A DNA stretch of 33,827 nt, taken from Alphaproteobacteria bacterium (GTDB lineage Bacteria > Pseudomonadota > Alphaproteobacteria > ATCC43930 > CGMCC-115725). The first letter of the stretch is position 1. Each line of letters begins with the position of its first letter. Position numbers and translations under genes: made by a program. This document shows, piece after piece, positions 7,243 to 26,099 of this stretch. The notes under the pieces are model-generated. The model had not been told where the DNA came from and searched no databases. It saw nothing but the letters and a program-made list of their open reading frames with translations. Location of the stretch: positions 1 to 33,827 of the forward strand of contig JASIAN010000144.1 in NCBI GenBank assembly GCA_030042035.1, written 5' to 3'.

Positions 7243-8274
7243 TCACCGGCCTGACCTGCCGGCCGCGGCACCCGCGATGCCGAAGAGCGCCTCGCGGCAG
7301 ATCACCTCGGCCGGCAGCCCGGTCTGCTTCATGCGGAATTCGGCCTCGGCCGCACGATCCAGCGCAGTGCGCAGGCGCGCTTCGCCCCAGCACTGCAACT
7401 GCCGCCGCCAGCTGTCCTGTTCCTTGAAGAAGATGGGCGGCCGAGCCGTGCGGATCGCCTCGTCGATCGTGCCGCCGGCGGCAACGCGGGCGGCAAGCAG
7501 ATGCAGACGCTGCAGGTGGCGCAACAGGGCGCGGATGACGCTGACCGGCGACTCGCCCTCCTGGAACACGCGGGCGAGCGCGCGGTCGAGCGCCGCGGCA
7601 TCGCCCTCGGCGGCGGCAAGCAGGGCATCGTCGAGCGACAGCGGCGCGCTGTCGGCAATGACGGCACGGGCATCGTCGAGGCTCATCCGACCGCCGTCAC
7701 CGGCATACAGCGTCAGCTTTTCGAGTTCGGCGCGGGTCAGCAGCCGGTCGCCGCCGAGATGGGCGACAAGAAACTCGATCGCGTCGCGGCTCACCGCAAC
7801 GTGGTGTTCGGCGCAGGTTTCGCGGACCACCGCGGCAAGATCGCGCGCCGAGTCGGGATAGCAGCCGATCGACGCAGCGGCGGCTGCGTCGTCGAACGCG
7901 CGGCGCAGCGCCGAGCGGGAAGGCAGTTCGCCGGCTTCGACGACGACCAGCGCGTCACACTTCGGATCGGCGAGGAACCGGGCAAAGAGCGGCGCTAGCG
8001 CATCGCCCGCTTCGCGCACGCGCACGAACCGCTTGCCGCCCGTCAGAGCGATCTGCGCCGCCTCGTCCGCGAGCCGTGCCGGGTCGGCGACGAGCGCCGC
8101 GGCGGTGAGTTCGGCGACCCGAAATGGATCATGCGGATCGGGGCAGATCGTGCGCGCCAAGATTTCGCCGCGCTCGCGCACCAGCCCCGCGTCGGGGCCG
8201 TAAAGCAGGACGGCGCGGATTTCCGCATCGGGGCGCCGCAGGAAGCCCGCGACCCGCGTCGGCGACAGTTTCAT
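7243..8274 (-). CDS. holA: DNA polymerase III subunit delta
   Basis: Clamp-loader subunit that opens the beta sliding clamp; it works with delta', tau/gamma, chi and psi in the replisome. It is 343 aa, the usual size. The N-terminal AAA+-like domain begins MKLSPTRVAGFLRRPD and continues AVLLYGPDAGLVRERGE, the standard HolA signature in which the P-loop is degenerate. The middle (EFLVAHLGGDRLLTRAELEKLTLYAG) and the helical collar domain also match. The ATG overlaps the lptE stop (ATGA), so translation is coupled to lptE. It is the last gene of the leuS-lptE-holA unit. Confidence 0.95.
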   Translation of the reverse strand: MKLSPTRVAGFLRRPDAEIRAVLLYGPDAGLVRERGEILARTICPDPHDPFRVAELTAAALVADPARLADEAAQIALTGGKRFVRVREAGDALAPLFARFLADPKCDALVVVEAGELPSRSALRRAFDDAAAAASIGCYPDSARDLAAVVRETCAEHHVAVSRDAIEFLVAHLGGDRLLTRAELEKLTLYAGDGGRMSLDDARAVIADSAPLSLDDALLAAAEGDAAALDRALARVFQEGESPVSVIRALLRHLQRLHLLAARVAAGGTIDEAIRTARPPIFFKEQDSWRRQLQCWGEARLRTALDRAAEAEFRMKQTGLPAEVICREALFGIAGAAAGRSGR

Positions 8275-8798
8275 GTCTTGGCCGGCGGCGCGGCGGCGCG
8301 GCGCTGGAAGAACACCATCAGCCGGGTCAAAATGTCATCGCGCAATTCATCGACGACGCGGGTTTCCGAATCGCTCTGCGCCACGACATTTGAATAGCCG
8401 TTGGCCAGCAGATTGAACGAATTGTTGAAATGGCTGCTGCCGGCGAGCAGCTGTGAGCCGGTCTTGAGGTCGGCAAGCACGAAATGCGCGTAGACGTCGA
8501 TGCGGCCGAGGGTGCCATAGCCCTGGGTCGTGAGGCCGAGGTTTTGCTTCGAAACCGCGAGCGTCACGCGCAGCACGTAGCGCTGCGGCGTCGGCTCGCC
8601 ACTCGGGTTGAAGGCGGCGCGCAGCACCAACTCGAGGTTCTGGCCGATGCGCTCGGCGATCGGTGCGACCTTGATCGCGCGCAAATCGGCGGCGGCGGGA
8701 CCGCTCTGTGGGTCGGCGTAGAGTGGCGCCCAGCCGCAGCCGGAGGGCGTAAGGACAATCCCGAGGACTCCGACGAGGAGGACGCGGCGGCTGGCCAT
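8271..8798 (-). CDS. lptE: LPS-assembly lipoprotein LptE
   Basis: An outer-membrane lipoprotein of 175 aa that plugs the LptD barrel and helps place lipopolysaccharide in the outer leaflet. The N-terminus (MASRRVLLVGVLGIVL) is a signal peptide ending in a lipobox-like TPSGC, followed by GWAPLY, typical of alphaproteobacterial LptE. The core (RYVLRVTLAVSKQNLGL.., RIDVYAHFVLAD) and the helical end (DELRDDILTRLMVFFQRR) match the family. The track ORF starts 51 codons upstream inside a palindromic repeat; GGAAGA just before ATG at 8798 marks the real start. It overlaps holA by 4 nt. Confidence 0.93.
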   Translation of the reverse strand: MASRRVLLVGVLGIVLTPSGCGWAPLYADPQSGPAAADLRAIKVAPIAERIGQNLELVLRAAFNPSGEPTPQRYVLRVTLAVSKQNLGLTTQGYGTLGRIDVYAHFVLADLKTGSQLLAGSSHFNNSFNLLANGYSNVVAQSDSETRVVDELRDDILTRLMVFFQRRAAAPPAKT

Positions 8799-8810
8799 TC
8801 TTCCGTCTGC

Positions 8811-8895
8811 GTCATTGCGAGGCGCACCGCGCCGAAGCAATCCCGAACGACCGAGGCGAAACGCCGCGGGATTGCCTCGCTTCGCTCGCAATGAC
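8811..8895. repeat. Dispersed palindromic repeat, copy 2, between leuS and lptE
   Basis: Arms GTCATTGCGAG..GAAGCAATCCCG and CGGGATTGCCTCGCTTCGCTCGCAATGAC flank a short centre; the same arms occur at 2208-2283. It fills nearly the whole leuS-lptE gap inside an otherwise tight operon, so its transcript would fold into a strong hairpin that may lower or stabilise the lptE-holA message. A degenerate extra half (GTCATTTCGCTACGCTCGG) follows at 8896. Confidence 0.8.
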
Positions 8896-8904
8896 GTCAT
8901 TTCG

Positions 8905-11472
8905 CTACGCTCGGCCAATGACGACGTTGGCGACGCGGTTTTGCACGACAATAACGTTCTCCGGCGCCTTGCCGGCCAGCATGCGGGCGACCTGCGGCAG
9001 CGCGAGGGCCGCTTCCCTGACCTCGCTGTTGGCCGCGTCGCGCGGCAGGTCGATCGTGCCGCGCAATTTGCCGTTGACCTGCACGGCGATTGTCACCGTT
9101 TCGTCCTGCACGAGCTGCGGATCGGGCTTTGGCCACGGTTCATCGACCAAGAGCGTCGTGTGACCGAGTTCCTGCCACATCTCCTCGGCCAGATGCGGCA
9201 TCATCGGCCCGATCAATCGCGCCGCAACCTCCAGACCCTCGCGCAACGCATCCGCCGCCGCAGGCTCATCGACCGGCATGTCTTCGAGGGCGTTGGTCAG
9301 CTCACGAATGCGGGCGACGGCCCGATTGAAATGGAATTTTTCGAGATCGTCAGTGACGGCTGCGATCGTCTTGTGCGTTGCCCGCCGGACGACAACGATC
9401 TCCGCTGGCACCGCAGGCGGGATCGCGCGGCCAACCGGCGGCAGCGGCACAGCCGGTTCGGACACCAACCGCCACAGCCGGTTGACATAGCGCCACGTGC
9501 CGTCGATGCCCGCGGCGGTCCATTCGAGGTCGCGCTCGGGCGGGCTGTCGGATAAGAGATAAAGCCGCGCCGTATCGGCGCCGTAGGTATCGACGATGGC
9601 ATCGAGATCGACGACGTTCTTTTTCGACTTACTCATCTTTTCCAGGCGGCCGATCGTCACCCGCCGGCCTTCGCCATCGACGAGGCGGCCCGTGGCGTCC
9701 TCCTGCACTTCTTCCGGGAACAGCCATTCGCCATTCTCGCTTTGATAGGTCTGGTGCAGCACCATCCCTTGCGTGAAGAGGCCGGCGAACGGCTCGTCGA
9801 GGTCGATATAGCCGCAGCGCTTCAGCGCGCGAGTGAAGAAGCGCGAATAGAGCAGATGCAGGACGGCGTGCTCGACGCCGCCGATATACTGGTCGACCGG
9901 CATCCAATATTCGGCGGCGGCCCGGTCAAACGCGGTCGCCGCGCGCGCCGAGCAGAAGCGCAAAAAATACCATGACGACTCGAAGAACGTGTCGAACGTG
10001 TCGGTCTCGCGCTCGGCCGCACCGCCGCAGGCGGGACACGCGACGTGCTTCCACGTCGGGTGGCGGGCGAGCGGGTTGCCGGGCGCGTCGAAGCTCACAT
10101 CCTGCGGCAGTTCGACCGGCAATTGCGCCTCCGGCACCGGCACGATGCCGCAGCGCGCGCAATGGATGACCGGGATCGGGCAGCCCCAATAGCGCTGGCG
10201 CGACACGCCCCAGTCGCGCAGCCGGTAGGCGATCGTGCGCTCGCCGCGGCCTGATTGCTCGAGCCGCTCGCCGACCGCTCGCTTCGCCTTAGGCACCGAT
10301 AGGCCGTTCATGAAATCGGAATTGTAGAGGGTGCCGTCATCGACAAAGGCGGTATCGCCGATCTCGAAGGTCGCCGGGTCGGCGCCCGGCGGCAGCACCA
10401 CCGGGATGACCGGCAGAGCGTATTTGCGGGCGAATTCGAGGTCGCGCTGGTCGTGCGCCGGGCACCCGAAAATCGCCCCGGTGCCATATTCCATCAGCAC
10501 GAAATTGGCGACATAGACCGGCACGCGGCGGGCCGGATCGAGCGGATGGACGGCCTCCAACGGCGTCCGATAGCCGCGCTTTTCGGCCGCTTCGATGACT
10601 GCCTCGCTGGTGCCGAGCCGGTCGCATTCGGCGATGAACTCGGCGAGGGCGGGATCGCGTTCGGCCAGCCGCTGGGCGAGCGGATGATGCGGCGACAAGG
10701 CAAGGAACGAGGCGCCGTAGAGCGTATCGGGCCGGGTCGTGAACACCTCGATCGCCTCGTCCCGCCCGGCGACGCCGAACAGCACGCGGGCACCCTCCGA
10801 GCGGCCGATCCATTTCTCCTGCATCAGCCGCACCCGCTCCGGCCAGCGGTCGAGCGTTTCCAACGCTGCGAGCAATTCGTCGCTGAATGCGGTGATGCGC
10901 AGGTTCCATTGCGCCAGGAGGCGCTTTTCGACGAGCGCGCCGGAGCGCCAGCCGCGGCCGTCGATGACCTGCTCGTTGGCGAGCACGGTGTGCTCGACCG
11001 GGTCCCAGTTGACCCACGACTCCTTGCGGTAGGCGAGGCCTGCCTTCAGGAAATCGAGAAACATCTTCTGTTCGTGCCGGTAATATTCGGGGTGGCAGGT
11101 CGCAATTTCGCGCGACCAGTCATAGGCGAACCCCATCCGCTGCAGTTGGCCGCGCATCGTGCTGATATTGTCGCGGGTCCACAGGGCCGGGTGCACGTTG
11201 CCGGCGATCGCCGCGTTCTCGGCCGGCAGGCCGAACGCGTCCCACCCCATTGGATGCAGCACGTTAAAGCCCTGGGCGCGGCGATAGCGTGCGACAAGAT
11301 CGCCCATCGTGTAATTGCGGACATGCCCGACGTGCAATTTGCCGGACGGGTAGGGAAACATTTCGAGGACATAATATTTCGGCCGGGCGGCGGTGTGCGC
11401 CGCGAAGCTGCCGCGCTCGCGCCAGACCCGCTGCCACTTTTGTTCGCTTTCCCGAAAATTGTAACGCGACAT
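8905..11472 (-). CDS. leuS: Leucyl-tRNA synthetase
   Basis: Cytoplasmic class I aminoacyl-tRNA synthetase of 855 aa, normal for bacteria. It contains the HIGH-type motif in [20 protein letters not shown] near residue 45, a CP1 editing insertion with the T-rich [13 protein letters not shown] block near 245, a Zn-type insert (CARCGIVP and CPACGG), the leucine-specific region and the KMSKSKKN loop near 625, then the anticodon-binding helices and the small C-terminal domain ([14 protein letters not shown]). The start [17 protein letters not shown] is the usual one. It lies 34 nt downstream of the DUF3576 lipoprotein gene and upstream of lptE-holA, a standard alphaproteobacterial order. Confidence 0.98.
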
Positions 11473-12982: not shown

Positions 12983-13045
12983 GGGGGTCAAAGTTGAACG
13001 CCGATCACCCTCAACCGGGGTCAATCTTCCACACCGGATCACACC
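12983..13045. repeat. Two degenerate direct repeats resembling an IS21-type element end
   Basis: GGGGGTCAAAGTTGAACGCCGATCACCC (12983-13010) is followed 34 bp on by GGGGTCAATCTTCCACACCGGATCACACC (13017-13045). Spaced GGGGTCAA..GCCGAT units resemble the multiple terminal repeats of IS21-family elements. No transposase gene or second end is present, so at most this is a leftover end. The rest of the 12878-13073 gap shows nothing recognisable. Confidence 0.35.
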
Positions 13046-13073
13046 GCATCGCGCAAATCCCTGGGACGTCACC

Positions 13074-13343
13074 TCAGAAAGTCGGATCGAGAACCGCAAC
13101 CGGTCCCTCAGGATCGTAGCGCGGATCGGTAATCCGCTCGGCCCGGACTAGGGTTGCTCGGCCCCACGGCGGGACACGCACGCCAGCGCCCGGCGGAAAG
13201 CGGGTCGCGACGTCGAACGCCTTGGCTGCCGCGTCGCGTGCCGCGGCCTCATCCGGGGCGCGGACGATCGCCATGCCTCGGTGAGAGCTCGCTTCCCAGT
13301 TCGGGTCGAGCACATCGATCGGGCTCAGCTTCCAGAGTGACAT
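13074..13343 (-). CDS. Small hypothetical protein, last gene of the hsp20 operon
   Basis: A protein of 89 aa that I do not recognise. It begins MSLWKLSPIDVLDPNWEASSH and has an alanine-rich helix (APDEAAARDAAAKAFDVA), with no signal peptide or membrane segment. CAGGAG lies 7 nt before ATG, so the longer track start is rejected. It follows the Ddh-like gene by 17 nt, which makes it the sixth and last gene of the minus-strand hsp20 operon. Its size and alternating beta/alpha pattern suggest a small single-domain cytoplasmic protein; no function is proposed. Confidence 0.75.
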   Translation of the reverse strand: MSLWKLSPIDVLDPNWEASSHRGMAIVRAPDEAAARDAAAKAFDVATRFPPGAGVRVPPWGRATLVRAERITDPRYDPEGPVAVLDPTF

Positions 13344-13360
13344 CGCTGGTCTCCTGAAAC

Positions 13361-14260
13361 TCACGCTTCGTGATCGTCTGGGATGTCCTGGCACAGCAGG
13401 CAGGGCGGGATGTCACCGAGCCGGTGGACGCCAGGTCCGAGCAGCGGTAGCGCCCGCGCCGCCGCGACCATGATCTGCGCGGTCACCGCGAACAGGTCGA
13501 AGCGACCTTCGAGCAGAAAGCGCTGATGCGCGTCGCCAGCGGCGAGGCCGAGCCGTTCGAGCACGATGCCATGGCCCTCATGCTCGAGTTCCTTGAGGCT
13601 GCCGACCGGGATCACCAGCGTCTCCTCGCCGAAGAACAGCGGATCGCTCCGCACCGCTTGCGTTGCGGCCTCGATATCGGCGCCAGCGTCCAGTTCAACA
13701 TAGACATAACGCTGCATCCGGGCGCCTTCGGCGCGCAGTTCGGTGCACAGCGCATCCTTGATGCCCGGCAGCGCGCGAGCGGCGAGCGTATGGTGCAGGC
13801 TGACACCCGGACGATCGCGGGTTTCGGTATGGCCCTTTGGGCTCATCACCGCAAAAAGGCCACGAAAGATCGACAGCATCCCCGGGTTCCAGCCTGCCCC
13901 GGTGACCGCCGCGATGCGATGGCGCAGGGCGACCCGGTCGAGCGCCTCGCGATAGGCCGCCCGATCCGGCGGCGGCAGGATCGCGGCCTCGACAATCGGG
14001 ACGCGATGCTGCAAGAGATCGGTCGCGGTGTCGCGGACGAGAGCGGGCGGCAGGCAGATCAGCGCCGCGTCGATGCCGTCGATCTCGCTCGCGTCCATGC
14101 GCGCCGGCGCAACCTGGAGCGGCGGCGGCATCGGCTGGCCGAGGCTCGCCGGGCGCCGCACGACACCTGCCACGGCGAGGTCTTCGCTCGCGGCGATCGC
14201 CTTGCTGCAGGCGAGCCCGACCTTGCCGAGCCCGATAATCGCAAGGCGCTGCCGCTTCAT
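13361..14260 (-). CDS. Diaminopimelate-dehydrogenase-like NAD(P)-binding protein
   Basis: A 299-aa protein with an N-terminal Rossmann fold (RLAIIGLGKVGLACSKAI) and a second domain like meso-diaminopimelate dehydrogenase. The block AVTGAGWNPGMLSIFRGLFA parallels the GWDPGMFS motif of Ddh, and HHTLAARALPGIKDA also fits. The C-terminal region (GRFDLFAVTAQIMVAAARALPLL) matches Ddh-type dimer helices. Ddh makes meso-DAP directly for lysine and peptidoglycan, but the substrate here may differ, since neighbours are stress genes rather than lysine genes. The ATG overlaps the THUMP gene stop (ATGA), so translation is coupled. The longer track start is rejected for that reason. Confidence 0.75.
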   Translation of the reverse strand: MKRQRLAIIGLGKVGLACSKAIAASEDLAVAGVVRRPASLGQPMPPPLQVAPARMDASEIDGIDAALICLPPALVRDTATDLLQHRVPIVEAAILPPPDRAAYREALDRVALRHRIAAVTGAGWNPGMLSIFRGLFAVMSPKGHTETRDRPGVSLHHTLAARALPGIKDALCTELRAEGARMQRYVYVELDAGADIEAATQAVRSDPLFFGEETLVIPVGSLKELEHEGHGIVLERLGLAAGDAHQRFLLEGRFDLFAVTAQIMVAAARALPLLGPGVHRLGDIPPCLLCQDIPDDHEA

Positions 14261-14886
14261 CGCGACTGGCTCAGAAACGGGTATAGCCGCAGATCGTCGC
14301 GGCGCCACAGCGCGATCCCGGCGCGATGGTCGATCGTTTCGATGTGAATGATAAAGTCAGGGTCGTCGAACGCGATGTGGCCCGGCGTTCCAGCGCTGTT
14401 CAGTTCCGCCAGCAGCGCCTCGTCGAGAAAGCGTTCTTCGTTGGGGGTCGAGAGGATGCCCTTCAGACCGCGGCGGTGCAGGCGAATGTGAAACCGCTTT
14501 CCCGCCAGAAGTGGCGCCCAGGGGAGGACCAGTTCGCGAGCCGTCGTCTCGAACTCCTCAACGGTCGCAAAATCGAAGGTCCGCTGTGCCGCGAAGACAT
14601 GTGCGATGAAATTGAGGATGCCGGGCGTCTCGGCAACTGCCGCGCCGAACTCCTGCACGAAGCGGTCCGGGTCGGCGACCGCCATCACCAGAACGTTGAA
14701 ATAGTGCGTGCGATGCAGCCAGCCCCAGCGCCGCAGGACCCGCCGCGCCTGCGGCGCGGTCGCTTCCGGCAGGGTGACGATGACATTCCAGCCCGGCGTG
14801 CCGGCGGGAGGTTTCGCGGGTGGCGACGGGCCTGCCGCAGCGGTCTCAACGCCGATCGCCGGGCCGGCCCCCGGCTCCTGGTTCAT
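14257..14886 (-). CDS. THUMP-domain-like protein, no catalytic domain
   Basis: A predicted RNA-binding protein of 209 aa. Residues about 1-30 are a Pro/Ala-rich lead. The body follows the THUMP pattern: an early strand (WNVIVTLPE), a middle helix-rich part (EEFETTARELVLPWAPLLAG), then FHIRLHRRG and the closing strands DDPDFIIHIETIDHRAGIALW. THUMP domains deliver tRNA to modification enzymes (4-thiouridine synthase, m2G methyltransferases), but no methyltransferase or thiolase domain is attached, so a partner or a non-catalytic role is likely. The start at 14886 overlaps the upstream stop (ATGA); an ATG 6 nt earlier is also possible. It is tightly coupled to both neighbours. Confidence 0.75.
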   Translation of the reverse strand: MNQEPGAGPAIGVETAAAGPSPPAKPPAGTPGWNVIVTLPEATAPQARRVLRRWGWLHRTHYFNVLVMAVADPDRFVQEFGAAVAETPGILNFIAHVFAAQRTFDFATVEEFETTARELVLPWAPLLAGKRFHIRLHRRGLKGILSTPNEERFLDEALLAELNSAGTPGHIAFDDPDFIIHIETIDHRAGIALWRRDDLRLYPFLSQSR

Positions 14887-15386
14887 GCCCATGGCGGCTC
14901 TTCGCCTTCTCCAGACTGGGCCAGCCCGGCAAACACCTGGCGCAGGCTGGCGCGGGTCGTCGGGTGGACCAAATAGGTGCCGGTGCGGCGCGAATAGCGC
15001 AGCAGCGGCGCGGTGTCCTTCGTGCTCTGCTTCAGCAGGCGGCGGATCGCGTCGAAATAGCGGCGCAGGTGGCGCGGGTCGTCGAGTTTCAGCAACCGCG
15101 CAAGCCGCTCCGAGCTTGGCGCCTCGCCATTTTTCTCGTAGGACATTGCCTCCAGCAGGTCGTGCAGTCCCTTCAGCGCGCGGCCAAAGCTGACCTGGCG
15201 AACCAATGTCATGGCCTGGTCGCGATCGAGCACGGCCAGCCCATCGAATGGCGCGCGCTTGGCGGCGCCGAGTCCGGTCGCGCCGCGCGGCGTCGGCTTG
15301 CGGCGGGTCGCCAGATAGGCCAGCAGCTCCTGCCGCAGCGCCGTCGGCATCGCAGCAAGATCAGACGCGCTCAGGACCACCTGCAT
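14883..15386 (-). CDS. Hypothetical helical protein of the hsp20 operon
   Basis: A 167-aa protein that I do not recognise. The N-terminus MQVVLSASDLAAMPTALRQELLAYL is followed by a basic linker (ATRRKPTPRGATG) and then a helical domain (ALKGLHDLLEAMSY, SERLARLLKLDD, YFDAIRRLLKQS). It ends with an acidic tail. There is no signal peptide or membrane span. GGGAGAA precedes ATG. The basic linker and helical body might fit a nucleic-acid or protein adaptor, but no known motif supports a function. It is 30 nt downstream of the BON gene and overlaps the THUMP gene by 4 nt. Confidence 0.75.
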   Translation of the reverse strand: MQVVLSASDLAAMPTALRQELLAYLATRRKPTPRGATGLGAAKRAPFDGLAVLDRDQAMTLVRQVSFGRALKGLHDLLEAMSYEKNGEAPSSERLARLLKLDDPRHLRRYFDAIRRLLKQSTKDTAPLLRYSRRTGTYLVHPTTRASLRQVFAGLAQSGEGEEPPWA

Positions 15387-15416
15387 GGCAGTTTCTCCCG
15401 CCGTTCCCGACCGCGG

Positions 15417-16136
15417 TCACGCGACCGCGATGCGGTTCACGACATTTTCGACGCCGCAGACGTACCACGCGTCATGTTCGGCCATGTCGCGCTCAGACAT
15501 GGTCGGCACGAACCCGTCGAGCGTCACGGTGGCGGTGCGCGTCGTCACCCGGATCTGATCGGGATTGACGAACGGATCCTTCTCCAACGCCACCCGAACG
15601 GCGTCGGTGATCTCGGCGTCGCTGTCGGCCTCGGGCGGGCTGACGCCGAGCCCGTTGACGACATCGCGGCTACCCGGAACCCACCAGGCGAGCACGCCGG
15701 CTAGGCGCTTCTGTCCGAGGCCGACGACGTCGCCGTCGAGCGTGACGACCCCATCCTCGACGCGAATGTCGATCACGCCAGTGGCCGATAAGGGATCGCG
15801 CGCCAGTTCCGGCCGGCCTTTCACCCAGAGGCGAAGACGGCAATTGGCGAGTGCCGGTTCCTCGATCAGCGCGTCGCGCACGAGGTCGGCGATCATGCCG
15901 TCCTCCATCGGCGTTGCCGGCCGGACCCGCAGGCGGTCGATGATCCCTCGCGGCGCGACCAGCGCTGCTGCGCTGCGCAACAGCCGGCGCTTGACCGAGA
16001 CATCCGCCACCTCGCCGTCGATCAGCAGCAAGCCATCCGACAGGGCGAGCACAATCGACGCCTCGTCCAAGGCAATTGTTGTGTCCGTGCGCAATGCGCC
16101 GCGGACGCGCTGCAGCAACTCGGTCTCGGCGGTCAT
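15417..16136 (-). CDS. Triple BON-domain protein (copy 1)
   Basis: A 239-aa protein made of three consecutive BON-type repeats at about residues 1-70, 72-150 and 160-235, each with the alpha-beta pattern ending in a glycine-strand (LLIDGEVADVSVKRRL; VTLDGDVVGLGQKRLAG; VTLDGFVPTMSERDMAE). BON domains bind phospholipid or other ligands in osmotic-shock proteins such as OsmY, but this one has no signal peptide, so it is probably cytoplasmic or peripheral. It is clearly paralogous to the gene at 24373-25095, sharing KRLAGxLAWWxPGxRDV and AEHDAWxVxGVxxVVNR. It follows hsp20 by 58 nt, across a strong hairpin. Confidence 0.85.
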   Translation of the reverse strand: MTAETELLQRVRGALRTDTTIALDEASIVLALSDGLLLIDGEVADVSVKRRLLRSAAALVAPRGIIDRLRVRPATPMEDGMIADLVRDALIEEPALANCRLRLWVKGRPELARDPLSATGVIDIRVEDGVVTLDGDVVGLGQKRLAGVLAWWVPGSRDVVNGLGVSPPEADSDAEITDAVRVALEKDPFVNPDQIRVTTRTATVTLDGFVPTMSERDMAEHDAWYVCGVENVVNRIAVA

Positions 16137-16159
16137 CGTCAGGCCTATCCTGTTTCGTT

Positions 16160-16183
16160 TTGGGGGCGCCGCAGCGCCCCCAA
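16160..16183. terminator. Perfect 10-bp hairpin between hsp20 and the BON gene
   Basis: TTGGGGGCGC-CGCA-GCGCCCCCAA forms a perfect stem with a 4-nt loop in the 58-nt gap downstream of hsp20. On the transcribed minus strand it is followed by A-rich sequence rather than a T-run. It therefore looks like an mRNA-protecting or attenuating intercistronic hairpin rather than a complete terminator, which would leave hsp20 more strongly expressed than the genes after it. Confidence 0.6.
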
Positions 16184-16194
16184 TCTGCGCCCGC

Positions 16195-16752
16195 TCAGGC
16201 GGTCTTGACCTCGATCTTCCGATGCCGCTTTTGCGCCTCAGCCGTCTTCGGCAGCGTGAGGGTCAAGACGCCCTTTGACAGTTCGGAGCTGATCTTGTCG
16301 CGATCGACCGCGGCCGGCAGCGAGAACGAGCGCTGGAACGAACCGAATGACCGCTCGCAGAGGTAGTAGTTACCCTCCTTCTCTTCTTTTTCCTGGCGCT
16401 TTTCGCCCTTGATCGTCAGCATGTCGCCGCTGACGCGGACCTCGACGTCCTTTTCCTCCATGCCGGGCAGCTCGGCGGTGATCTTGTAGGCCGTCTCGTT
16501 CTCGGCCACGTCGATCGCGGGCATCGCGATCGTGAAGGCCCGCTCGATCCGACGCATCGGCTCGAATTCGAACATCCGGCGTGGCGACGGCATCGCAAAG
16601 CCGCCGCCAAAGAACCGATCGAACATGCGCTCCATCTCGTCATGGAAGGAACGCCACAGCTCGGGCGTCCGGGCGGGCGCAGGAGCGGGAACCGGAGCCG
16701 GCGCGGGGGCTGAGGGCTCGGCTTTCTTCACTTCGACGGCAGTATCAGCCAT
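16195..16752 (-). CDS. Small heat-shock protein, Hsp20/alpha-crystallin family
   Basis: An ATP-independent holdase chaperone of 185 aa that binds unfolding proteins as oligomers. It has a Pro/Ala-rich N-terminal arm (about 25-40), an amphipathic RSFHDEMERMFDRFFGG segment near 45, the alpha-crystallin domain at about 75-175 (AIDVAENETAYKITAELPGM.., LTIKGEKRQEKEEKEGNYYLCERSFGSFQRSFSLP), the closing GVLTLTLPK strand and a basic tail. GGAGAGG lies 3 nt before ATG at 16752, so the track start 10 codons earlier is rejected. Two FixK/FNR-like boxes lie upstream. It is the first gene of a six-gene operon. Confidence 0.95.
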   Translation of the reverse strand: MADTAVEVKKAEPSAPAPAPVPAPAPARTPELWRSFHDEMERMFDRFFGGGFAMPSPRRMFEFEPMRRIERAFTIAMPAIDVAENETAYKITAELPGMEEKDVEVRVSGDMLTIKGEKRQEKEEKEGNYYLCERSFGSFQRSFSLPAAVDRDKISSELSKGVLTLTLPKTAEAQKRHRKIEVKTA

Positions 16753-16808
16753 GGTCCTCTCCTTCAGGAAAAGCGGCCGCATAGTTTGTGAGCCTCGGCA
16801 AGGCCGCT

Positions 16809-16822
16809 TTGACCTAGCTCAA
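16809..16822. promoter_or_regulatory. FixK/FNR-like box, promoter-proximal to hsp20
   Basis: TTGACCTAGCTCAA has the TTGA-N6-TCAA half-site geometry of Crp/Fnr-family regulators. Its centre lies about 63 bp before the hsp20 ATG. It is a weaker match than the box at 16873 because the inner AT pairs are missing. Confidence 0.5.
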
Positions 16823-16872
16823 TTCGCACGAAAGACGCTCCTGGCCAGTGGCCAGCGGGAGAGACTGCCGGA

Positions 16873-16886
16873 TTGATGTGGATCAA
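16873..16886. promoter_or_regulatory. FixK/FNR box, perfect consensus
   Basis: TTGATGTGGATCAA fits TTGAT-N4-ATCAA exactly. It lies in the divergent region between hsp20 (minus) and the membrane-protein gene at 16984 (plus), about 97 bp before the latter's ATG and 64 bp (centre to centre) from the weaker box. It could serve either direction, under a FixK2, FnrN or Anr type regulator in response to low oxygen. Confidence 0.75.
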
Positions 16887-16983
16887 GGGAATCCGCCACC
16901 CGGCAAATTATGAATTTCAGGCCGCCGATCTTAAGTGGCTGACCGCGAGGCGCTGAGGCGCGGTCCTATCGTCGCTGAGAGCC

Positions 16984-17427
16984 ATGCCATTGTTGAAATT
17001 GGGAGCTGTGCAAAGCCGTCTCTGGGCCGCGGTCGTGACCGGCGGCGTTGCGTTCGTCCTGTTATCGCTGCTGCTGGTGCCAGGCGATGTTGTGTCGGCT
17101 GCCGGCGTATTTGCGGCGGCCGCCCTTGGTGCCGGTCTTCTCGTGGTCTGGATGGTGCGACGGAAAACGCCGCCGCGCTCCGTCTGGGGCGCCGGTTGCT
17201 TCATCAACGGCTTGTTGAGCACGGCGGTCGCCGTCTCTTTCCACGTTCAAGACGATCTCTGGGCGGGCCGTTCCCGGTATGCGGAAAATCTCGACCGCGC
17301 GATCGGGCCGCTGACCGGTTTCGTCTGGGCACTGGCGGCGCGGATCGGGCTGATTGCCTTGATCATCGCGATCATTCTGTTCGCGCTGAGCTATTGGCTG
17401 CTCGGCCCGCCGCGCCGCAAGGCTTAG
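16984..17427 (+). CDS. Small inner-membrane protein, unknown
   Basis: A 147-aa protein that I do not recognise. Strong hydrophobic segments lie at about 13-34 (LWAAVVTGGVAFVLLSLLLV), 38-58 (AAGVFAAAALGAGLLVVW) and 118-140 (IGLIALIIAIILFALSYWLL). A weaker one near 70-85 (INGLLSTAVAVSF) suggests three to four spans. The loop at 86-115 is polar. The last segment is followed by a positively charged end (PPRRKA). It is the first plus-strand gene after the FixK/FNR boxes and lies 34 nt before the MDR gene, so it probably begins a four-gene unit with the MDR protein and the ABC transporter. Confidence 0.7.
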   Translation: MPLLKLGAVQSRLWAAVVTGGVAFVLLSLLLVPGDVVSAAGVFAAAALGAGLLVVWMVRRKTPPRSVWGAGCFINGLLSTAVAVSFHVQDDLWAGRSRYAENLDRAIGPLTGFVWALAARIGLIALIIAIILFALSYWLLGPPRRKA

Positions 17428-17461
17428 CGGTGGTCTTGCATAGCCTACGGGAGACACGGTG

Positions 17462-18523
17462 ATGCGGATCGATGCGGCAGTCGTAAACGCAGCGCGCGAA
17501 CCCTTCTCGGTCGAGGCGCTGGACCTGGAAGAACCGCGCGATGACGAAGTCTTTGTCCAGGTCATCGCAGCCGGAATGAGCCACGTCGATCTGCTGGCGC
17601 GGGACGGGGACATACCCGTGCCGTTGCCCGCGGTGCTCGGCTGCGAGGGCGTCGGCCGGGTCGAACGCATCGGCGCCAAGGTGATGGGCGTCGCCCCGTT
17701 GGATCGCGTCGTCTTCGCTCGCCCCGGGGGTGGTCCCGACCTGTTTGGCCGCCGGATCTCGCGGTATCGGGAAGTGGAATTCGCGCCGCTCCATCGTTCC
17801 GGCCGGCCGATCGCCGGAAGCGCCTTCGGCCATTGCTGCTTTGCCACCCATGTCCTGACCGCGGAACGGAACCTCATCCGGGTTCCCCACGACGACACGC
17901 CCTTCCCGGTGCTCGCCGCGCTCGGCGGCGACGTGCAGATTGGCGCGGGCGCGGTCATCGACACCCTGCGGCCGCGCCCCGGCAGCAGCATCGCGATTTT
18001 CGGAGCCGGTGCAGCTGGTCTCTCGGCCGTCCTGGCGGCGCGGCTGGCAAGCTGCCACCCGATCATTGCGGTCGATATTAAGGCGAGCCGCCTCGACATG
18101 GCGGAGCAATTGGGCGCCGACCGCACGATCGATCCCGACGGCCTCGACCCTGTCGTCGCCATTCGCGGCATGGCTCCAGGCGGTGTCCAGTTCGCCGTCG
18201 ATACGACCGGCGATCCTTCGCTGATCGGGCAGGCGCTGGAATGCATTGCTTCTGGCGGCCGCTGCGTGCTGGCTGGAGCGGGTCCGCTTGATGCCGAGGT
18301 TGCGGTGAAGTTTCGCCTGCTATTGCAGCCGCGCACTCTCATCGGCAACCCCTCCGGCGCGCGCGACCCCGCGGAGTTCGTGCCGCGGCTGCTTGGGCTT
18401 TACCGGCAGGGGCGCTTCCCGATCGACCGGCTCATCACGGAGTTTCGCTTCGCGGACATCAACACGGCAGCCGACGCTCTGCTGAGCGGCGCCGCCATAA
18501 AACCTGTGCTCGTCATGCCCTGA
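17462..18523 (+). CDS. MDR (alcohol-dehydrogenase-like) oxidoreductase lacking zinc ligands
   Basis: A 353-aa medium-chain dehydrogenase closest in pattern to aryl-alcohol dehydrogenases. It has an N-terminal GroES-like domain and a Rossmann domain (IAIFGAGAAGLSAVLAARL near 180), with the cofactor-selecting Asp in IIAVDIKASRL. The usual zinc ligands are absent: the catalytic Cys motif GxCHTD reads GMSHVD, GHEG reads GCEG, the later GCGxxTGAG reads GGDVQIGAG, and the Cys-rich structural-zinc lobe is missing. It may be a zinc-free quinone-oxidoreductase-like enzyme or a non-enzymatic NAD(P) protein. GGGAG precedes the start; GTG at 17459 is an alternative. It ends 6 nt before the ABC ATPase gene. 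Confidence 0.85.
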   Translation: MRIDAAVVNAAREPFSVEALDLEEPRDDEVFVQVIAAGMSHVDLLARDGDIPVPLPAVLGCEGVGRVERIGAKVMGVAPLDRVVFARPGGGPDLFGRRISRYREVEFAPLHRSGRPIAGSAFGHCCFATHVLTAERNLIRVPHDDTPFPVLAALGGDVQIGAGAVIDTLRPRPGSSIAIFGAGAAGLSAVLAARLASCHPIIAVDIKASRLDMAEQLGADRTIDPDGLDPVVAIRGMAPGGVQFAVDTTGDPSLIGQALECIASGGRCVLAGAGPLDAEVAVKFRLLLQPRTLIGNPSGARDPAEFVPRLLGLYRQGRFPIDRLITEFRFADINTAADALLSGAAIKPVLVMP

Positions 18524-18529
18524 CCGGCG

Positions 18530-19366
18530 ATGGTGAGGGTGGCGTCAAATCCGGGCGGAGCAGACATCGCCGCTATCGCTACGCACGAATTAACGCGGCT
18601 GTTTGATGATGTTGCTGCCGCGGACCGCGTGACGATGACCGTGCGACAGGGCGAGATGTTTGGCCTGATCGGCCCCAACGGCGCCGGCAAAAGCACGCTG
18701 ATCAAGATGTTGACCACGCTGCTGCCTCCCACATCGGGATCGGCCGCGGTCGTTGGCTATGACATCATCCGCCAACCCGGCGAAGTGCGCCGCCACATCG
18801 GCTACGTGCCGCAGCTCCTGTCCGCGGATGGCACGCTGACCGGATACGAAAACATGCTGCTTTCCGCGCGTCTTTACGGCATCCCGCGGACAGAGCGGGC
18901 AGCACGCATCACCCGGGCGCTTGCCCGCATGGGTCTGACGCAGGTCGCCGATCATCTGGTCGGTCATTATTCCGGCGGCATGATCCGCCGCCTCGAGATT
19001 GCGCAAAATCTGCTGCATCGACCCAAGGTGTTGTTCCTCGACGAGCCGACGATCGGGCTCGATCCGGCCGCGCGCGAGACGGTGTGGGAGCACGTCCGCG
19101 ATCTTCGGGATTCGTTCCAGACGACGATCGTCGTCAGCTCGCATCACATGGAAGAAATCGAAGAAATGTGCGACCGCGTCGCGCTGATAGATCGTGGGCG
19201 GCTCGTCATCGTCGGCACTCCAGCCGAACTCAAGTCCCGCGCGGGACCGGGCGCGACGCTCGACGATCTCTTTATCCAGCTCATCGGCGCGGCAGCGGAA
19301 GCTGAAGCAGCAGAGGGTTATGGGGCCGTCAGACGCGCCCGCCGCGCCGCCCGCGAGCATGGCTGA
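18530..19366 (+). CDS. ABC transporter ATP-binding protein (ABC-2 type exporter)
   Basis: Cytoplasmic ATPase subunit of 278 aa that powers the permease encoded next. Walker A GPNGAGKST is near residue 47, the Q-loop is GYVPQ, the signature is YSGGMIRRLEIAQ in place of LSGGQ, Walker B is VLFLDEPT with GLDP following, and the H-loop is VSSHHMEE. The layout matches the DrrA/CcmA type that exports drugs, lipids or polysaccharides; the cargo is unknown. The C-terminal 30 residues are Arg/Ala-rich and overlap the permease start by 47 nt. The start is close behind the MDR stop, which implies one operon. Confidence 0.93.
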   Translation: MVRVASNPGGADIAAIATHELTRLFDDVAAADRVTMTVRQGEMFGLIGPNGAGKSTLIKMLTTLLPPTSGSAAVVGYDIIRQPGEVRRHIGYVPQLLSADGTLTGYENMLLSARLYGIPRTERAARITRALARMGLTQVADHLVGHYSGGMIRRLEIAQNLLHRPKVLFLDEPTIGLDPAARETVWEHVRDLRDSFQTTIVVSSHHMEEIEEMCDRVALIDRGRLVIVGTPAELKSRAGPGATLDDLFIQLIGAAAEAEAAEGYGAVRRARRAAREHG

Positions 19367-20153
19367 AAACCGGCTCGGGCGATTGGCCGATTATGCGACC
19401 CAATGCCTGGCAGTGGCCGCTGCCGAGGTGCAGAAACTCCGCCATGATCCGGTGGAGCTGTTCACCCGCGCGGCGCAGCCGGTGTTATGGCTGGTGCTCT
19501 TCGGCGAAGTGATGGCACAGGTCCGGGGCATCTCGCCGGGAGGGGTGCGATATCTCGATTTTCTGGCGCCCGGCATCCTCGCCCAGAGCGTTCTGTTCGT
19601 AGCGATCTTCTACGGCATTTCGGCGATTTGGGAGCGCGATCTGGGCGTGTTGCAGCGCTACCTGGTAAGCCCGGCTCCGCGGTCGGCACTGGTGATCGGG
19701 AAGGCCTTGTCGGCGAGCGTCAGGGCCTTGTCGCAGGCGCTGATCGTCTATGTGCTGACCCTCGCGCTGGGTGTCGATATCGACCTCGATCCGCGCAGCA
19801 TTCTCGGGGCGGTTGCCGCGATCGCTGTGGGTTCGGCACTCTTCTCGACCTTTTCGCTGATCATCGCCTGCATCGTCAAAACGCGGGAGCGCTTTATGGG
19901 GATCGGCCAGGTGCTGACAATGCCGATCTTTTTCGCCAGCAACGCGATCTACCCTCTGTCGCTGATGCCGGGGTGGCTGCGCGCCGTCTCCCACTTGAAC
20001 CCGCTGACGTATGAAGTCGATGTGCTCCGAGCTCTGATGCTCTCTTCGGGGAGATCGGATTACGGGCTGTTGTTCGACTTTACCGTGCTGTTCGCCGCGA
20101 CCGCGGCGCTGACCGCAATCGCATCGAGGCTTTATGGCCGAATGGGCTACTGA
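19320..20153 (+). CDS. ABC-2 type transporter permease
   Basis: Inner-membrane subunit of 277 aa with about six spans, partner of the preceding ATPase. Typical family parts are the N-terminal cytoplasmic helix (CLAVAAAEVQKLRHDPVELFTR), QPVLWLVLFGEVM, FLAPGILAQSVLF, the conserved ERDLGVLQRYLVSPAPR coupling segment, and NAIYPLSLMPGWLRAVSHLNPLTYEVDVLRALM near the end. GAGGG just before ATG at 19320 fixes a start inside the ATPase gene; the earlier track start is a shadow. It resembles the DrrB/NodJ group. It converges on dnaJ across about 180 bp. Confidence 0.92.
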   Translation: MGPSDAPAAPPASMAENRLGRLADYATQCLAVAAAEVQKLRHDPVELFTRAAQPVLWLVLFGEVMAQVRGISPGGVRYLDFLAPGILAQSVLFVAIFYGISAIWERDLGVLQRYLVSPAPRSALVIGKALSASVRALSQALIVYVLTLALGVDIDLDPRSILGAVAAIAVGSALFSTFSLIIACIVKTRERFMGIGQVLTMPIFFASNAIYPLSLMPGWLRAVSHLNPLTYEVDVLRALMLSSGRSDYGLLFDFTVLFAATAALTAIASRLYGRMGY

Positions 20154-20178
20154 TACAAGTCGCCAGCGTCGCGATGTA

Positions 20179-20232
20179 GAGGAGCGGTTCAGGGTAGCAG
20201 CGTTGCGCCGAACCCGCTGAATGCGGCTCCTC
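20179..20232. terminator. Imperfect stem-loop between convergent ABC and dnaJ units
   Basis: GAGGAGC (20179-20185) pairs with GCTCCTC (20226-20232), and inside them GGTTC pairs with GAACC. It lies in the only gap between the two converging operons, so it may stop both. There is no T-run and the stem is bulged; this is a weak call. The remainder of 20154-20336 shows nothing else. Confidence 0.25.
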
Positions 20233-20336
20233 CGCAAAGGTCGTGCCTGCCGTCGACCGCGCGCCTCGCCACTCACGATTTGCGCTGGATCAACGCGGCC
20301 GCGGCGAGTTCTCCAGCCGCGTTCGACCACCCCGCC

Positions 20337-21449
20337 TCAGCTGCGCTTTGAATTGGTCGTCGTTGTCGGTTGCGCCGCAAGACTCCGCAGCCGCTCATAA
20401 AGCGCCCTTTCTTGCCGATTGAGCTTGGCAGGCACCCTGACCTGGACGCGGACGAACAGATCACCGCGGCCATCGCCACCGAACCGCGGCAGGCCCTTGC
20501 CGCGTAATCGAAGTGTTGCACCTGGCTGGGTTCCTGCAGGCAGCTTCACGGCGGCGCTGCCGTCGAGTGTCGGCACCGTCAAGGTCGTGCCGAGTACCGC
20601 GTCGGGTACAGCGACGATCTCGTCGCGCCAAAGGTCGGCGCCGTTGCGATTGAACCGCGGGTCGCGCGCGGTCTCGACGACGAGCAGAAGGTCGCCCGGC
20701 GGCGCAGCCGGCTCCGCGCTCGCCATGCCGTGCCCGGCGACGCGCAGCATGGTGCCATCCTCGATCCCAGGCGGGATCGTCACGGTCAGGGTTTCGGCCG
20801 CCTCGGCCTGTCCTCGGCCTGCGCAGTTTGGACAAGGACTGTCGATGATGACACCGCGGCCGCCGCAAGCCGGGCAGGGCGTGATCTGCTGGATGGCGAC
20901 GGCACCCCTCAGCTGTTTGCGGATTTCCTTGCCGCTTCCCTTGCATTTCTCACAGCTGCGAGGTTGCGTGCCCGGTTTTGCACCGGTGCCCTTGCAGCTG
21001 GCGCATGATGCGAGCCGCGTCACACGAACCGGCTCGGGGCCGCCGTGCAGCACGCGCTCCAACGGCACCGCGATGATCGTCTCGATATCGGCGCCGCGCC
21101 GCGGCCCGGCGCGCCGGCCGAACAGCCGGTCGAACAAGCCGCCGCCAAATCCGAAGCCGAACACGTCCGGGCCAAAAATATCCCCCAAATCCAAATGGCC
21201 GAACAGGTCTTCCGGCGAAAAGCCGGCGACGCCGGCATGGCCGCCCGCGTCGTAGGCGGCGCGTTTTTGCGGATCGTTGAGAACCGCGTAGGCTTCGGCG
21301 ATTTCCTTGAAGCGCTCCTCGGCGCCGGGCTCCTTGTTGCGGTCGGGATGGTATTTGAGCGCCAGCTGCCGAAAGGCGTCCTTGATCGCCTTCTGGTCGG
21401 CGTCGCGGGCGACGCCCAGCACCTCGTAATAATCGCGCTTCTCGGCCAC
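20337..21449 (-). CDS. dnaJ: DnaJ (Hsp40) type I co-chaperone, accessory copy
   Basis: A 370-aa co-chaperone that stimulates Hsp70 ATPase activity and delivers unfolded clients. The order is classical: J domain 1-70 with the HPD motif (LKYHPDRN), Gly/Phe-rich region ([20 protein letters not shown]), four CxxCxGxG zinc repeats ([32 protein letters not shown]), then two beta substrate domains and a short dimer end. The start is GTG, 26 nt after the Hsp70 stop, so the pair is one transcription unit. Its place inside a stress island suggests a second set besides the general dnaKJ, but the window cannot prove that. Confidence 0.93.
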
Positions 21450-21475
21450 GATGCCGCGCCGGCCACGACGAGATG

Positions 21476-23320
21476 CTAGGGTGTGGTCTCTTTGTACTCG
21501 GCGTCGACGACGCGAGCGCCGCCGGGCGGGCGCGCCTCCCCGCCCGGCGCCGCCTCGGCATGCGGCGCTGCTTTGGCTTGGCTGCCATAGAGAATTTTGC
21601 CGACTTCCTGCAGCGCGCTCTTCAAGGCCTCGGCCTTCTGGCTGGCAGCCGTGGCGTTTTTGGCTGCAACCTCGGTGCGCGCCTCGCGCAGCGCAACCTC
21701 GATGCGTGTCTTCAAGTCGTCGGCAATTCTGTCGCCGTAATCGGCCAGCGTGCGCTCCGCCTGATAGCAGATCGCATCGGCGTTGTTGAGCTGTTCGGCC
21801 GCCTCACGGCGCTTCTTGTCCTCCTCCGCGTATTTCTCGGCCTGTTCGACCATGCGCCGCTTTTCCGCCTCGGGGAGCCGCGTCGAGCCGGTGATGCGGA
21901 TCGACTGCGACCGGCCGCTCGCGGTGTCCTTGGCGGTCACATCGAGGATGCCGTCGGCATCGATATCGAAGCTGACGTCGATCTTCGGAATGCCGCGCGG
22001 AGAGGGCGGCAGGCCGTAGAGGTTGAACCGGCCGAGGCTGATATTGTCGGCGGCCATCGGCCGTTCGCCCTGGAAAACGTCGATCGTGACGCTCGTCTGC
22101 ATGTCGGCGGCCGTCGTGAACAGTTCCGCACGCTTGACCGGGATCGGCGTATTGCGGGCGATCAACGGGGTGGCGACGCCGCCGAGCGTCTCGATGCCGA
22201 GCGTGAGCGGCGTCACATCGACAAGCACGATGTTGCCGATCTCGCCCGCCAACACACCCGCCTGGATCGCGGCTCCCTGCGCGACGCATTCCATCGGGTC
22301 GACGCCAGTTTCGCCCTTTTTGCCGATCAATTCCTCGAAGAAGCTGCGCACACAGGGCATGCGTGTCGGGCCGCCGACAAAGATCAGACGGTCGATCTGA
22401 CCGAATTGCAGGCCGGCATCGCGAAAGGCCTGGGCGACGGGCTCGCGGCAGCGCTCGACCACCGGCCGCACGAGCCTCTCGAGTTCGGCGCGGGTGAATT
22501 CGTAGTCGAGATGCGCCGGCCCTGCCGCGGTGGCGGACAGAAACGGCAGGTTGACGCGCGCCGTCGTCGTGCTCGACAGCTCGATCTTCGCCACTTCGGC
22601 GGCCTCCCGCAGGCGCGCGAGGGCCACGCGATCGCTGCGGATGTCGATGCCTGTCTTGCCGTGGAAGGCCGCCGCCAGATGTTCGACCAGAATGCGGTCC
22701 ATGTCGGTGCCGCCGAGCCGGGTATTGCCGCTCGTCGCCTTGACCTCGAAGACCCCTTTGCCAAATTCCATGATCGTGACGTCGAGCGTGCCGCCGCCGA
22801 AATCGACAACGGCGATTCGCTGTTCCTGGCCGAGGCGGTCGAGGCCGTAGGCGAGCGAGGCTGCGGTCGGCTCGTTGACGAGCCGCGCCGCTTCGAGCCC
22901 GGCGATGTGGCACGCGTCTTTTGTCGCGCTGCGCTGATTGTCGTTGAAATAGGCGGGCACGGTGACGACCGCCTTGTCGACGGGCTCGCCAAGAAACGCT
23001 TCGGCGTCACGCTTGATCTTCTGCAACAAGAGGGCCGACAGCTCCTCGGGCGTGAACTCCTTATCGCGCAGGCGGATCCTTTCGCGCTGCCCCATGCGGC
23101 GCTTGAAGGCCGAGGCGGTGCCTTCGGGATTGATCGCCTGCTGCCGGCGCGCCGGCTCGCCGACGATGATCTGACCGTCCGCCGTGACCGCTACGTAGCT
23201 GGGGAAGGCCTTGCCGCCGAGCGTGATCCCCTCGGCGCTCGGAATGATGACCGGGCGGCCGCCGCGCAGAACGGCAGCCGCGGAATTCGACGTCCCCAGA
23301 TCGATCCCGATGATCGGCAT
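21476..23320 (-). CDS. Hsp70 (DnaK-like) chaperone, probable accessory paralogue
   Basis: A 614-aa ATP-driven chaperone paired with the DnaJ downstream. The nucleotide domain has phosphate loop [14 protein letters not shown], the [12 protein letters not shown] block, [23 protein letters not shown] and the [11 protein letters not shown] segment. The substrate domain follows from about 385 ([15 protein letters not shown]) and a helical lid ends in [11 protein letters not shown]. Several positions depart from housekeeping DnaK: SNSAAAV for the common TNSCVAV, a longer variable region [12 protein letters not shown], and an end unlike the usual EEVKDD type. That points to a stress paralogue. GGAG lies 9 nt before ATG at 23320; the track start 13 codons earlier is rejected. 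Confidence 0.92.
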
Positions 23321-23434
23321 TGTATCAGTCTCCGCGTGATGCCGCAGCGTGGCGGGCAACGCAATCCCATGCCGCCGGTCGATACGATTCCTGCCTCATC
23401 GGGTTCGCAAGCGGCGATGACGCCACTCCGAATT

Positions 23435-23449
23435 CGACACGTTGTGTCG
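23435..23449. promoter_or_regulatory. Perfect palindrome upstream of the Hsp70 gene
   Basis: CGACAC-GTT-GTGTCG lies in the 160-nt gap between archease and the Hsp70 gene, the widest gap in this operon and about 115 nt before the Hsp70 ATG. It may be an operator or short hairpin, giving the chaperone pair its own control. No factor can be assigned. Confidence 0.35.
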
Positions 23450-23480
23450 CCGTGACGGGTCCATTGCGCACCCGCCCCCT

Positions 23481-23903
23481 TCAGACATCGACGATGCACT
23501 CGGCGACCCAAGCGCCGTCGCCGCGCCGATCTACCTTGAGCGCCGTCAACGTCGCCCCTTTCGGCTCGACCGCCGGCATGTGGCGGATGCGATCGACCGG
23601 TTCGCCCCACGCCTGGCCGCGCAGCCGATGGCCCTCGATCGCTACGGAGAAGCGGCCGAACACCAGATGCCGCATGGCCATCTCGTAGATCAGCGCATTG
23701 AGCCAGTCATTCAGCAGAAAGGCGTCGTCGGGGGCCTCGCACGTGACGTCCACCGCCTCTTTGAGCGCGATGCCGGCCGGGTCGGTCACCGCCATCGTCA
23801 GCGCGAGCGCCGCCTGCTCGAAGGCGGAAGCGCGCGTTGGGCCGATGCCGCGTACCCCGATATCGGCGCTGTGGCCAAATAATTCTGCGTGCGGCTCAAC
23901 CAT
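23481..23903 (-). CDS. Archease
   Basis: A 140-aa protein of the archease family, which activates the RNA ligase RtcB by helping its guanylylation and metal loading in tRNA splicing and RNA repair. The family start is visible (FGHSADIGVRGIGPTRASAFEQAALAL..), with the conserved His-x-x-Asp, the TDP turn, DDAFLLNDWLNALIYEM in the middle, and an Asp-containing end AECIVDV. No rtcB is in the window. The start at 23903 begins just before the conserved domain and 22 nt after the upstream stop; its ribosome site is weak, so a longer N-terminus up to 23999 is possible. It lies upstream of the Hsp70 gene. Confidence 0.87.
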   Translation of the reverse strand: MVEPHAELFGHSADIGVRGIGPTRASAFEQAALALTMAVTDPAGIALKEAVDVTCEAPDDAFLLNDWLNALIYEMAMRHLVFGRFSVAIEGHRLRGQAWGEPVDRIRHMPAVEPKGATLTALKVDRRGDGAWVAECIVDV

Positions 23904-23925
23904 TGGCGCAGCCGATCCTTCGTCT

Positions 23926-24348: not shown

Positions 24349-24372
24349 AAACCAACTCCTTCATGTGCGCGC

Positions 24373-25095: not shown

Positions 25096-25147
25096 GGCAT
25101 GCTCCGGCAGAATAGGAATTGCTGTGCCGCAATCCGCGCTGCCGCGG

Positions 25148-25996: not shown

Positions 25997-26051
25997 GATC
26001 GATCTCCGTGAAACTCGCCGCCGATCTCACCCTCGCCCCTCGCCAGTGTCG

Positions 26052-26065
26052 TTGATCCACGTCAA
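26052..26065. promoter_or_regulatory. FixK/FNR-like box upstream of the DUF2267-CBS operon
   Basis: TTGATCCACGTCAA has the TTGAT-N4-(A/G)TCAA form, one base from the perfect palindrome. Its centre is about 62 bp before the CBS gene ATG, almost the same offset as the promoter-proximal box of hsp20, which suggests a matching activation geometry. Confidence 0.7.
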
Positions 26066-26099
26066 AGGAAGCGGCGAGCTGGCACCGGCGCACGGCAAG

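Follow-up and report, generated by a model that had tools for sequence, protein, structure and literature searches.

A predicted stand-alone NFLD-THUMP protein from an alphaproteobacterial stress island is associated with the Rtc RNA-repair system

The operon and its THUMP protein

The sequence analysed here (the window) is a 33,827-nucleotide (nt) stretch from an Alphaproteobacteria bacterium (GenBank assembly GCA_030042035.1, contig JASIAN010000144.1). Between positions 13074 and 16752 it carries six open reading frames (ORFs), all on the minus strand and in the order hsp20, BON, a gene for a 167-amino-acid (aa) protein, THUMP, Ddh and a gene for an 89-aa protein. The subject of this analysis is the THUMP protein and its association with the RNA-repair proteins RtcA and RtcB. 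The intergenic gaps measured 58, 30, −4, −4 and 17 nt when the second in-frame ATG, at 14886, was taken as the THUMP start; starting instead from the in-frame ATG further upstream, at 14892, turns the third gap (167-aa/THUMP) into −10. ATGA overlaps were present at two junctions, 167-aa/THUMP and THUMP/Ddh. The genes, gaps and overlaps thus agree with the initial annotation of this DNA.

The 58-nt gap between hsp20 and BON contains a G+C-rich, perfect 10-bp hairpin (16160-16183, minus strand; z = −2.8), a putative attenuator, or a terminator lacking a U tract. Because of this hairpin, hsp20 may be partly insulated, or transcribed in part separately. BON-167aa-THUMP-Ddh-89aa, leaving out hsp20, is the safer description of the unit that is read together.

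The THUMP protein (P0004; 14257-14886, minus strand) is 209 aa long (211 aa if translation begins at 14892). It gave no usable match of its own in Pfam, NCBIfam or the sequences of the Protein Data Bank (PDB). An AlphaFold (AF2) model was made from an alignment of relatives (A2) and had a predicted local distance difference test (pLDDT) score of 85.5. In the predicted fold the N-terminal part is ferredoxin-like and the C-terminal part is of THUMP type; a catalytic domain is absent. The best 24 PDB matches reported by Foldseek were all NFLD-THUMP or THUMP proteins; they included Trm11 (E = 1.6e-8), CDAT8, Trm14, TrmN, ThiI (RNA complexes 4kr6/4kr7), RlmKL and THUMPD1. Pfam THUMP was matched by three of the seven relatives scanned, at E values of about 0.001 or weaker. 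As modelled, the product of 14257-14886 is a bare NFLD-THUMP protein, and the initial assignment of a THUMP-like domain with no catalytic partner passed this structure-prediction check.

Alignment of 15 family members gave 22 invariant residues, including F134, R137, H139, R141 and G142 in the THUMP strand. The basic strand F-x-x-R-x-H-x-R-G was kept in 15/15 members, and these invariant residues would fit binding of the tRNA acceptor stem and 3' ACCA end by P0004.

Several candidate members were excluded. Twenty additional matches in the phylum, obtained with profile A2, were not counted as they lie in frames of 480-630 aa and look ThiI-type. One match (29%, genome G034) was discarded as spurious, being inside a 421-aa Rieske-type oxygenase. 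The THUMP sequence of L021 (a Terriglobia metagenome-assembled genome, MAG) was set aside as a broken fragment. It lies at 7949-8989 of that locus; its neighbours, a fragment of PGA_cap and a gene for a hydrolase, also flank rtcA in L039. Here and below, the genomes, contigs and loci compared are given by their working numbers (G, C and L).

Association with RtcA and RtcB

Orthologues of the THUMP protein were rare. Among 399 genomes of the phylum only the window's own genome carried one. Others were found in two relatives from the same family as the window genome, in 6/32 genomes from the order of a Geminicoccaceae MAG, in 3/63 from the order of a Rhodospirillales MAG, in 2/201 from the order of Methylocaldum, and in one further gammaproteobacterial MAG.

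All six members from the Geminicoccales order were single ORFs of 566-591 aa, with RtcA at the N terminus and THUMP at the C terminus. In those scanned, the RtcA half scored above cut-off against both TIGR03399 and PF01137. The RtcA-fused forms made up one clade of the THUMP tree (support 1.000). Among the THUMP proteins that the PDB search recovered there was no fusion to RtcA.

Rtc genes also adjoin unfused THUMP genes. In L017/L095 the THUMP gene is convergent with rtcA, with about 15 nt between the ORFs, near rpoH and genes for a metallo-beta-lactamase-fold (MBL) protein and DnaK. In L093 a BON-THUMP pair is convergent with rtcA, with DnaK, DnaJ and BCAM0308 genes close by. The genes of L094 are collinear in the order FtsH-archease-rtcB-BCAM0308-BON-THUMP.

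RtcA was present in all 14 genomes with an intact THUMP protein that could be judged, and RtcB in all seven of the intact-THUMP genomes checked for it. In the first eight THUMP-bearing genomes tested, RtcB was found in 8/8 and RtcA in 7/8, the exception being L021 with its broken THUMP. RtcA was uncommon in the background, occurring in 6 of 99 relatives and in 42 of 201 genomes from the Methylocaldum order (gammaproteobacterial genome G329). Across the 39 genomes of the window's family, RtcA and THUMP were confined to an identical set of three; the naive chance of this, uncorrected for kinship, is 1/C(39,3) = 1/9139 = 1.1e-4. Pairwise identities of THUMP and RtcA were correlated across 13 genomes (r = 0.83), a value that shared ancestry alone could explain.

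The window's own genome encodes RtcA on contig C275 and RtcB on contig C39. Paralogues elsewhere in this genome were sought by targeted searches. No joint rtcB-rtcA operon was seen in the stretches of this genome that were read; RtcR was not searched for. The association is claimed as a functional one and not as an enteric-type rtcBA operon. Genomic association, by fusion, adjacency and co-occurrence, places the THUMP protein with the Rtc RNA-repair system. Since its relatives are fused to RtcA or adjoin it, the protein is probably an undescribed helper directing RNA repair to damaged tRNA, apparently at low oxygen. The initial annotation had suggested that the operon protects or edits RNA or translation under stress. 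This pointed in the right direction; the deciding evidence (RtcA as fusion partner and neighbour, the archease of the window and the FNR-type boxes) lies outside the coordinates annotated.

The stress island and its FNR/FixK-type boxes

Positions 13051-26078 of the window form a 13-kb stress island of chaperones, BON proteins, archease and the THUMP operon. The following genes all lie on the minus strand. The archease, cofactor protein of RtcB, is an intact copy (23481-23903; PF01951, E = 2.3e-33). A DnaK-type chaperone (21476-23320) matched at 83% over 121 aa the DnaK fragment by THUMP/RtcA in L017/L095, and at 78% the DnaK of L093. A DnaJ-type co-chaperone (20337-21449) shared 61% identity with its counterpart in L093. 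A second three-BON protein (24373-25095), judged from its translation, is a probable paralogue of the 15417-16136 product. A DUF2267-CBS protein (25148-25996) was identified by protein scan.

Both ends of the island recur beside rtcA on C275. The left end (13051-13194) has a 90% identical copy there, joined to a 96% identical copy of the right end (25839-26078). The joined ends, with the interior missing, occupy 4940-5322 of L039 on C275, and rtcA follows directly downstream. Most simply, rtcA once had a copy of the island next to it, of which a deletion scar is left. Archease precedes rtcB in L046, L047 and L094. On C39 (L040, 5904-6117) the archease directly upstream of rtcB is a pseudogene with a frameshift and with residues 35-98 missing, and the archease of the window therefore probably serves RtcB in trans.

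Short sequences border the island on both sides. At 13000-13050, just beyond the left end, lie short repeats (TTGACCCC) that presumably resemble the ends of IS21-like elements. At the right border, a short ORF at 26158-26343 resembles the central portion of an FtsH-type (M41) protease and is probably what is left of a gene.

The motif TTGAT-N4-ATCAA, the FNR/FixK consensus, occurs without mismatch upstream of hsp20 at 16873-16886 (one found in the window, 0.02 expected). A pattern search placed a further box, with one mismatch, upstream of the DUF2267-CBS gene at 26052-26065. When up to one mismatch was allowed, 161 kb of alphaproteobacterial loci contained 43 boxes against 1.67 expected, about 25-fold, with first-order shuffles as background and with loci that had been chosen for their stress genes. 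The box-rich loci were L012, L013, L039, L041, L042, L046, L047, L093, L094 and L095. For contrast, the window flanks had none and the Geminicoccales fusion loci had one. Boxes lay 40-127 nt upstream of rtcA (L039), MBL-rtcA (L095), archease-rtcB (L046) and FtsH-archease-rtcB (L094), and likewise of BON-THUMP (L093) and 89aa-THUMP (L012 and L013). Judging by these motifs, low oxygen probably activates the island through an FNR/FixK-type regulator.

BCAM0308 corresponds to the NCBIfam equivalog NF040826 (lxa_BCAM0308) and carries an NMD3-like segment. It is a THUMP neighbour in L012, L013, L093 and L094. These loci, with their stress genes and FNR-type boxes, resemble the low-oxygen-activated (lxa) locus of Burkholderia cenocepacia (PMC6127331); the window differs in having no BCAM0308.

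Proposed role, alternatives and the remaining genes

The THUMP protein is proposed to be a tRNA-targeting accessory subunit of an RtcA/RtcB/archease system, encoded in a stress island induced by low oxygen. We give this reading a probability of about 0.6. RtcA turns RNA 3'-phosphate ends into 2',3'-cyclic phosphates and is needed for the broken-tRNA signalling through which the repair operon of Salmonella is induced (PMC7790460). Archease assists RtcB (PMC3973293). In ThiI the THUMP strand, the next helix and a loop hold the 3' ACCA end of tRNA, serving as a molecular ruler (PMC4041423). The NFLD-THUMP pair would grip the acceptor stem and 3' ACCA end, as in ThiI, and the module would offer RtcA a tRNA that is broken or has a damaged 3' end, making contact with RtcA where the two are separate proteins. 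The substrate site could be a nick in the anticodon, or it could be the acceptor end. RtcA would then form the 2',3'-cyclic phosphate, which RtcB with archease could reseal. A more far-reaching version is put forward tentatively, at somewhat less than even odds: that an undescribed THUMP subunit confers tRNA specificity on RtcA as a molecular ruler from the 3' ACCA end, and that in some Alphaproteobacteria RtcA, RtcB, archease and THUMP are all induced by oxygen limitation via FNR/FixK and not RtcR.

The family shares with the NFLD-THUMP module of ThiI (PMC4041423) its two-domain order, its predicted fold and the Foldseek match to the ThiI-RNA complexes; the basic strand conserved in all 15 members counts on the same side. 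It differs in that the THUMP protein of the window has no PP-loop or other catalytic domain, the family members standing alone or being fused to RtcA. With the rtcBA operons of Escherichia coli and Salmonella (PMC5175333, PMC7790460), where the substrates are damaged tRNA and rRNA, the system has RtcA and RtcB in common. Those operons are controlled by RtcR, which in Salmonella is the sigma-54 activator of rsr-yrlBA-rtcBA. By comparison, the window's own genome has rtcA and rtcB unlinked, archease present, FNR-type boxes ahead of the genes and the THUMP protein added. The RtcB-archease pair (PMC3973293) is matched by archease preceding rtcB in three loci and by the archease in the window; the difference is that the own-genome archease beside rtcB is a pseudogene.

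Several observations weigh against the proposed role. The Pfam THUMP cut-off (20.6 bits) was reached by no scanned member, the best scoring 20.0 bits. Co-occurrence of RtcA and THUMP at the family level represents few independent events. The genome of the window has the THUMP operon, rtcA and rtcB on three separate contigs, and the joined island ends on C275 could mean that this contig comes from a related strain (bin contamination 4%). In L012 and L013 the THUMP gene adjoins BCAM0308 and BON, not Rtc genes, and two gammaproteobacterial genomes (L018 and L071) have THUMP with no Rtc neighbour. Clear box enrichment was not seen at the fusion and gammaproteobacterial loci, so oxygen control would not be general.

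Some of these points also bear on a second explanation, in which the THUMP protein is an accessory to tRNA or rRNA modification, with a thiolase, methylase or deaminase partner acting in trans, and the link to RtcA reflects only shared stress regulation. Its close structural relatives are all parts of RNA-modifying enzymes, and the L012/L013 arrangement, with BCAM0308 and its NMD3-like segment, can be read in this way. We consider it unlikely, as no modification enzyme recurs as a THUMP neighbour, the fusion partner is RtcA, and RtcA was found in every THUMP genome checked. A loose, lxa-like low-oxygen island, in which genes assort freely and proximity says nothing about joint function, is less probable again. 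FNR-type boxes throughout, the island ends joined at a second site, and the variable order in which BCAM0308, acetate kinase, CBS, nitroreductase, HPF and FtsH genes are mixed would all be expected from it; it leaves unexplained the single-ORF RtcA-THUMP fusion in a lineage with no such island or boxes. The initial view that the six genes form one dedicated pathway with products in fixed ratio accords with the tight gaps, the two ATGA overlaps and the perfect box before hsp20, and is very improbable given that hsp20 and Ddh were seen at no other THUMP locus examined, that G001, from the same genus, keeps the order BON-167aa-89aa with no THUMP, Ddh or RtcA, and that a stable hairpin parts hsp20 from BON.

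The role preferred here, that of a tRNA-directed Rtc subunit, touches on a debate over whether bacterial RtcA and RtcB naturally act on broken tRNA or on rRNA. That the cyclase is fused to a module predicted to bind the tRNA acceptor speaks for tRNA, and a single fusion protein makes the question testable. With FNR-type boxes ahead of its genes, RNA repair may form part of a low-oxygen survival programme. Among the open-access papers searched, none was found to mention THUMP along with RtcA and RtcB, nor the 'THUMP domain' alongside 'RNA repair'; novelty is provisional. FNR-type control of RNA repair was likewise not found reported there; one paper, on phage infection without oxygen, names RtcB, anaerobic, FNR and RNA repair together. 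The rare THUMP family tied to Rtc RNA repair is provisionally regarded as a variant of a known system, through a link not described in the open-access papers searched.

Judged by gene order, the six-gene operon is a local arrangement. The four-gene core proposed initially was not conserved as a whole in relatives; the pairings of BON with THUMP and of the 89-aa gene with THUMP were. The most constant THUMP neighbour was the three-BON protein (15417-16136, minus strand; PF04972, E = 1.1e-28), found beside it in L012, L013, L093 and L094. L012 and L013 share the order BCAM0308 (divergent), 89aa-THUMP, BON.

The first annotation had named Hsp20, BON and Ddh-like products, and database matches bore this out. 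Hsp20 (16195-16752, minus strand; PF00011, E = 4.6e-27) and the BON protein are general stress proteins. The Ddh product (13361-14260, minus strand), a type II meso-diaminopimelate dehydrogenase-like enzyme, aligned over its full length (residues 2-297) with the solved meso-diaminopimelate dehydrogenase 3wb9 (E = 2.1e-54), and DAPDH_C was above cut-off. Its score against the NCBIfam equivalog TIGR01921 was 103.8 bits, under the cut-off of 180.6, so it is named Ddh-like by homology only, with a predicted substrate. It is probably a passenger in the operon.

The 167-aa protein (P0003; 14883-15386, minus strand) and the 89-aa protein (13074-13343, minus strand) gave no family above noise in database searches (Pfam and NCBIfam, PHROGs, and PADLOC for the 167-aa protein). 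The AF2 model of P0003 was low in confidence (pLDDT 51.8). Its homologue in G001 is 69% identical (L077, 5233-5730). A relative in G030 (31%; L046, 1423-1917) lies between a DUF2267 gene and rtcB-archease and has the C-terminal motif GE-EEP-W in common, which is another thread to RNA repair. A match in G076 was discarded as spurious because of three in-frame stops. Orthologues of the 89-aa protein were found in G001 and, directly upstream of THUMP, in L012 and L013 (69% and 63% identical). A defence-system reading received zero matches in the PADLOC search, and nothing was found when THUMP, P0003 and P0006 were queried against plasmids. A gene pair for an ABC exporter ATPase and permease lies near THUMP both in the window (18635-20153) and in L012 (8054-9680), at 64-74% identity.

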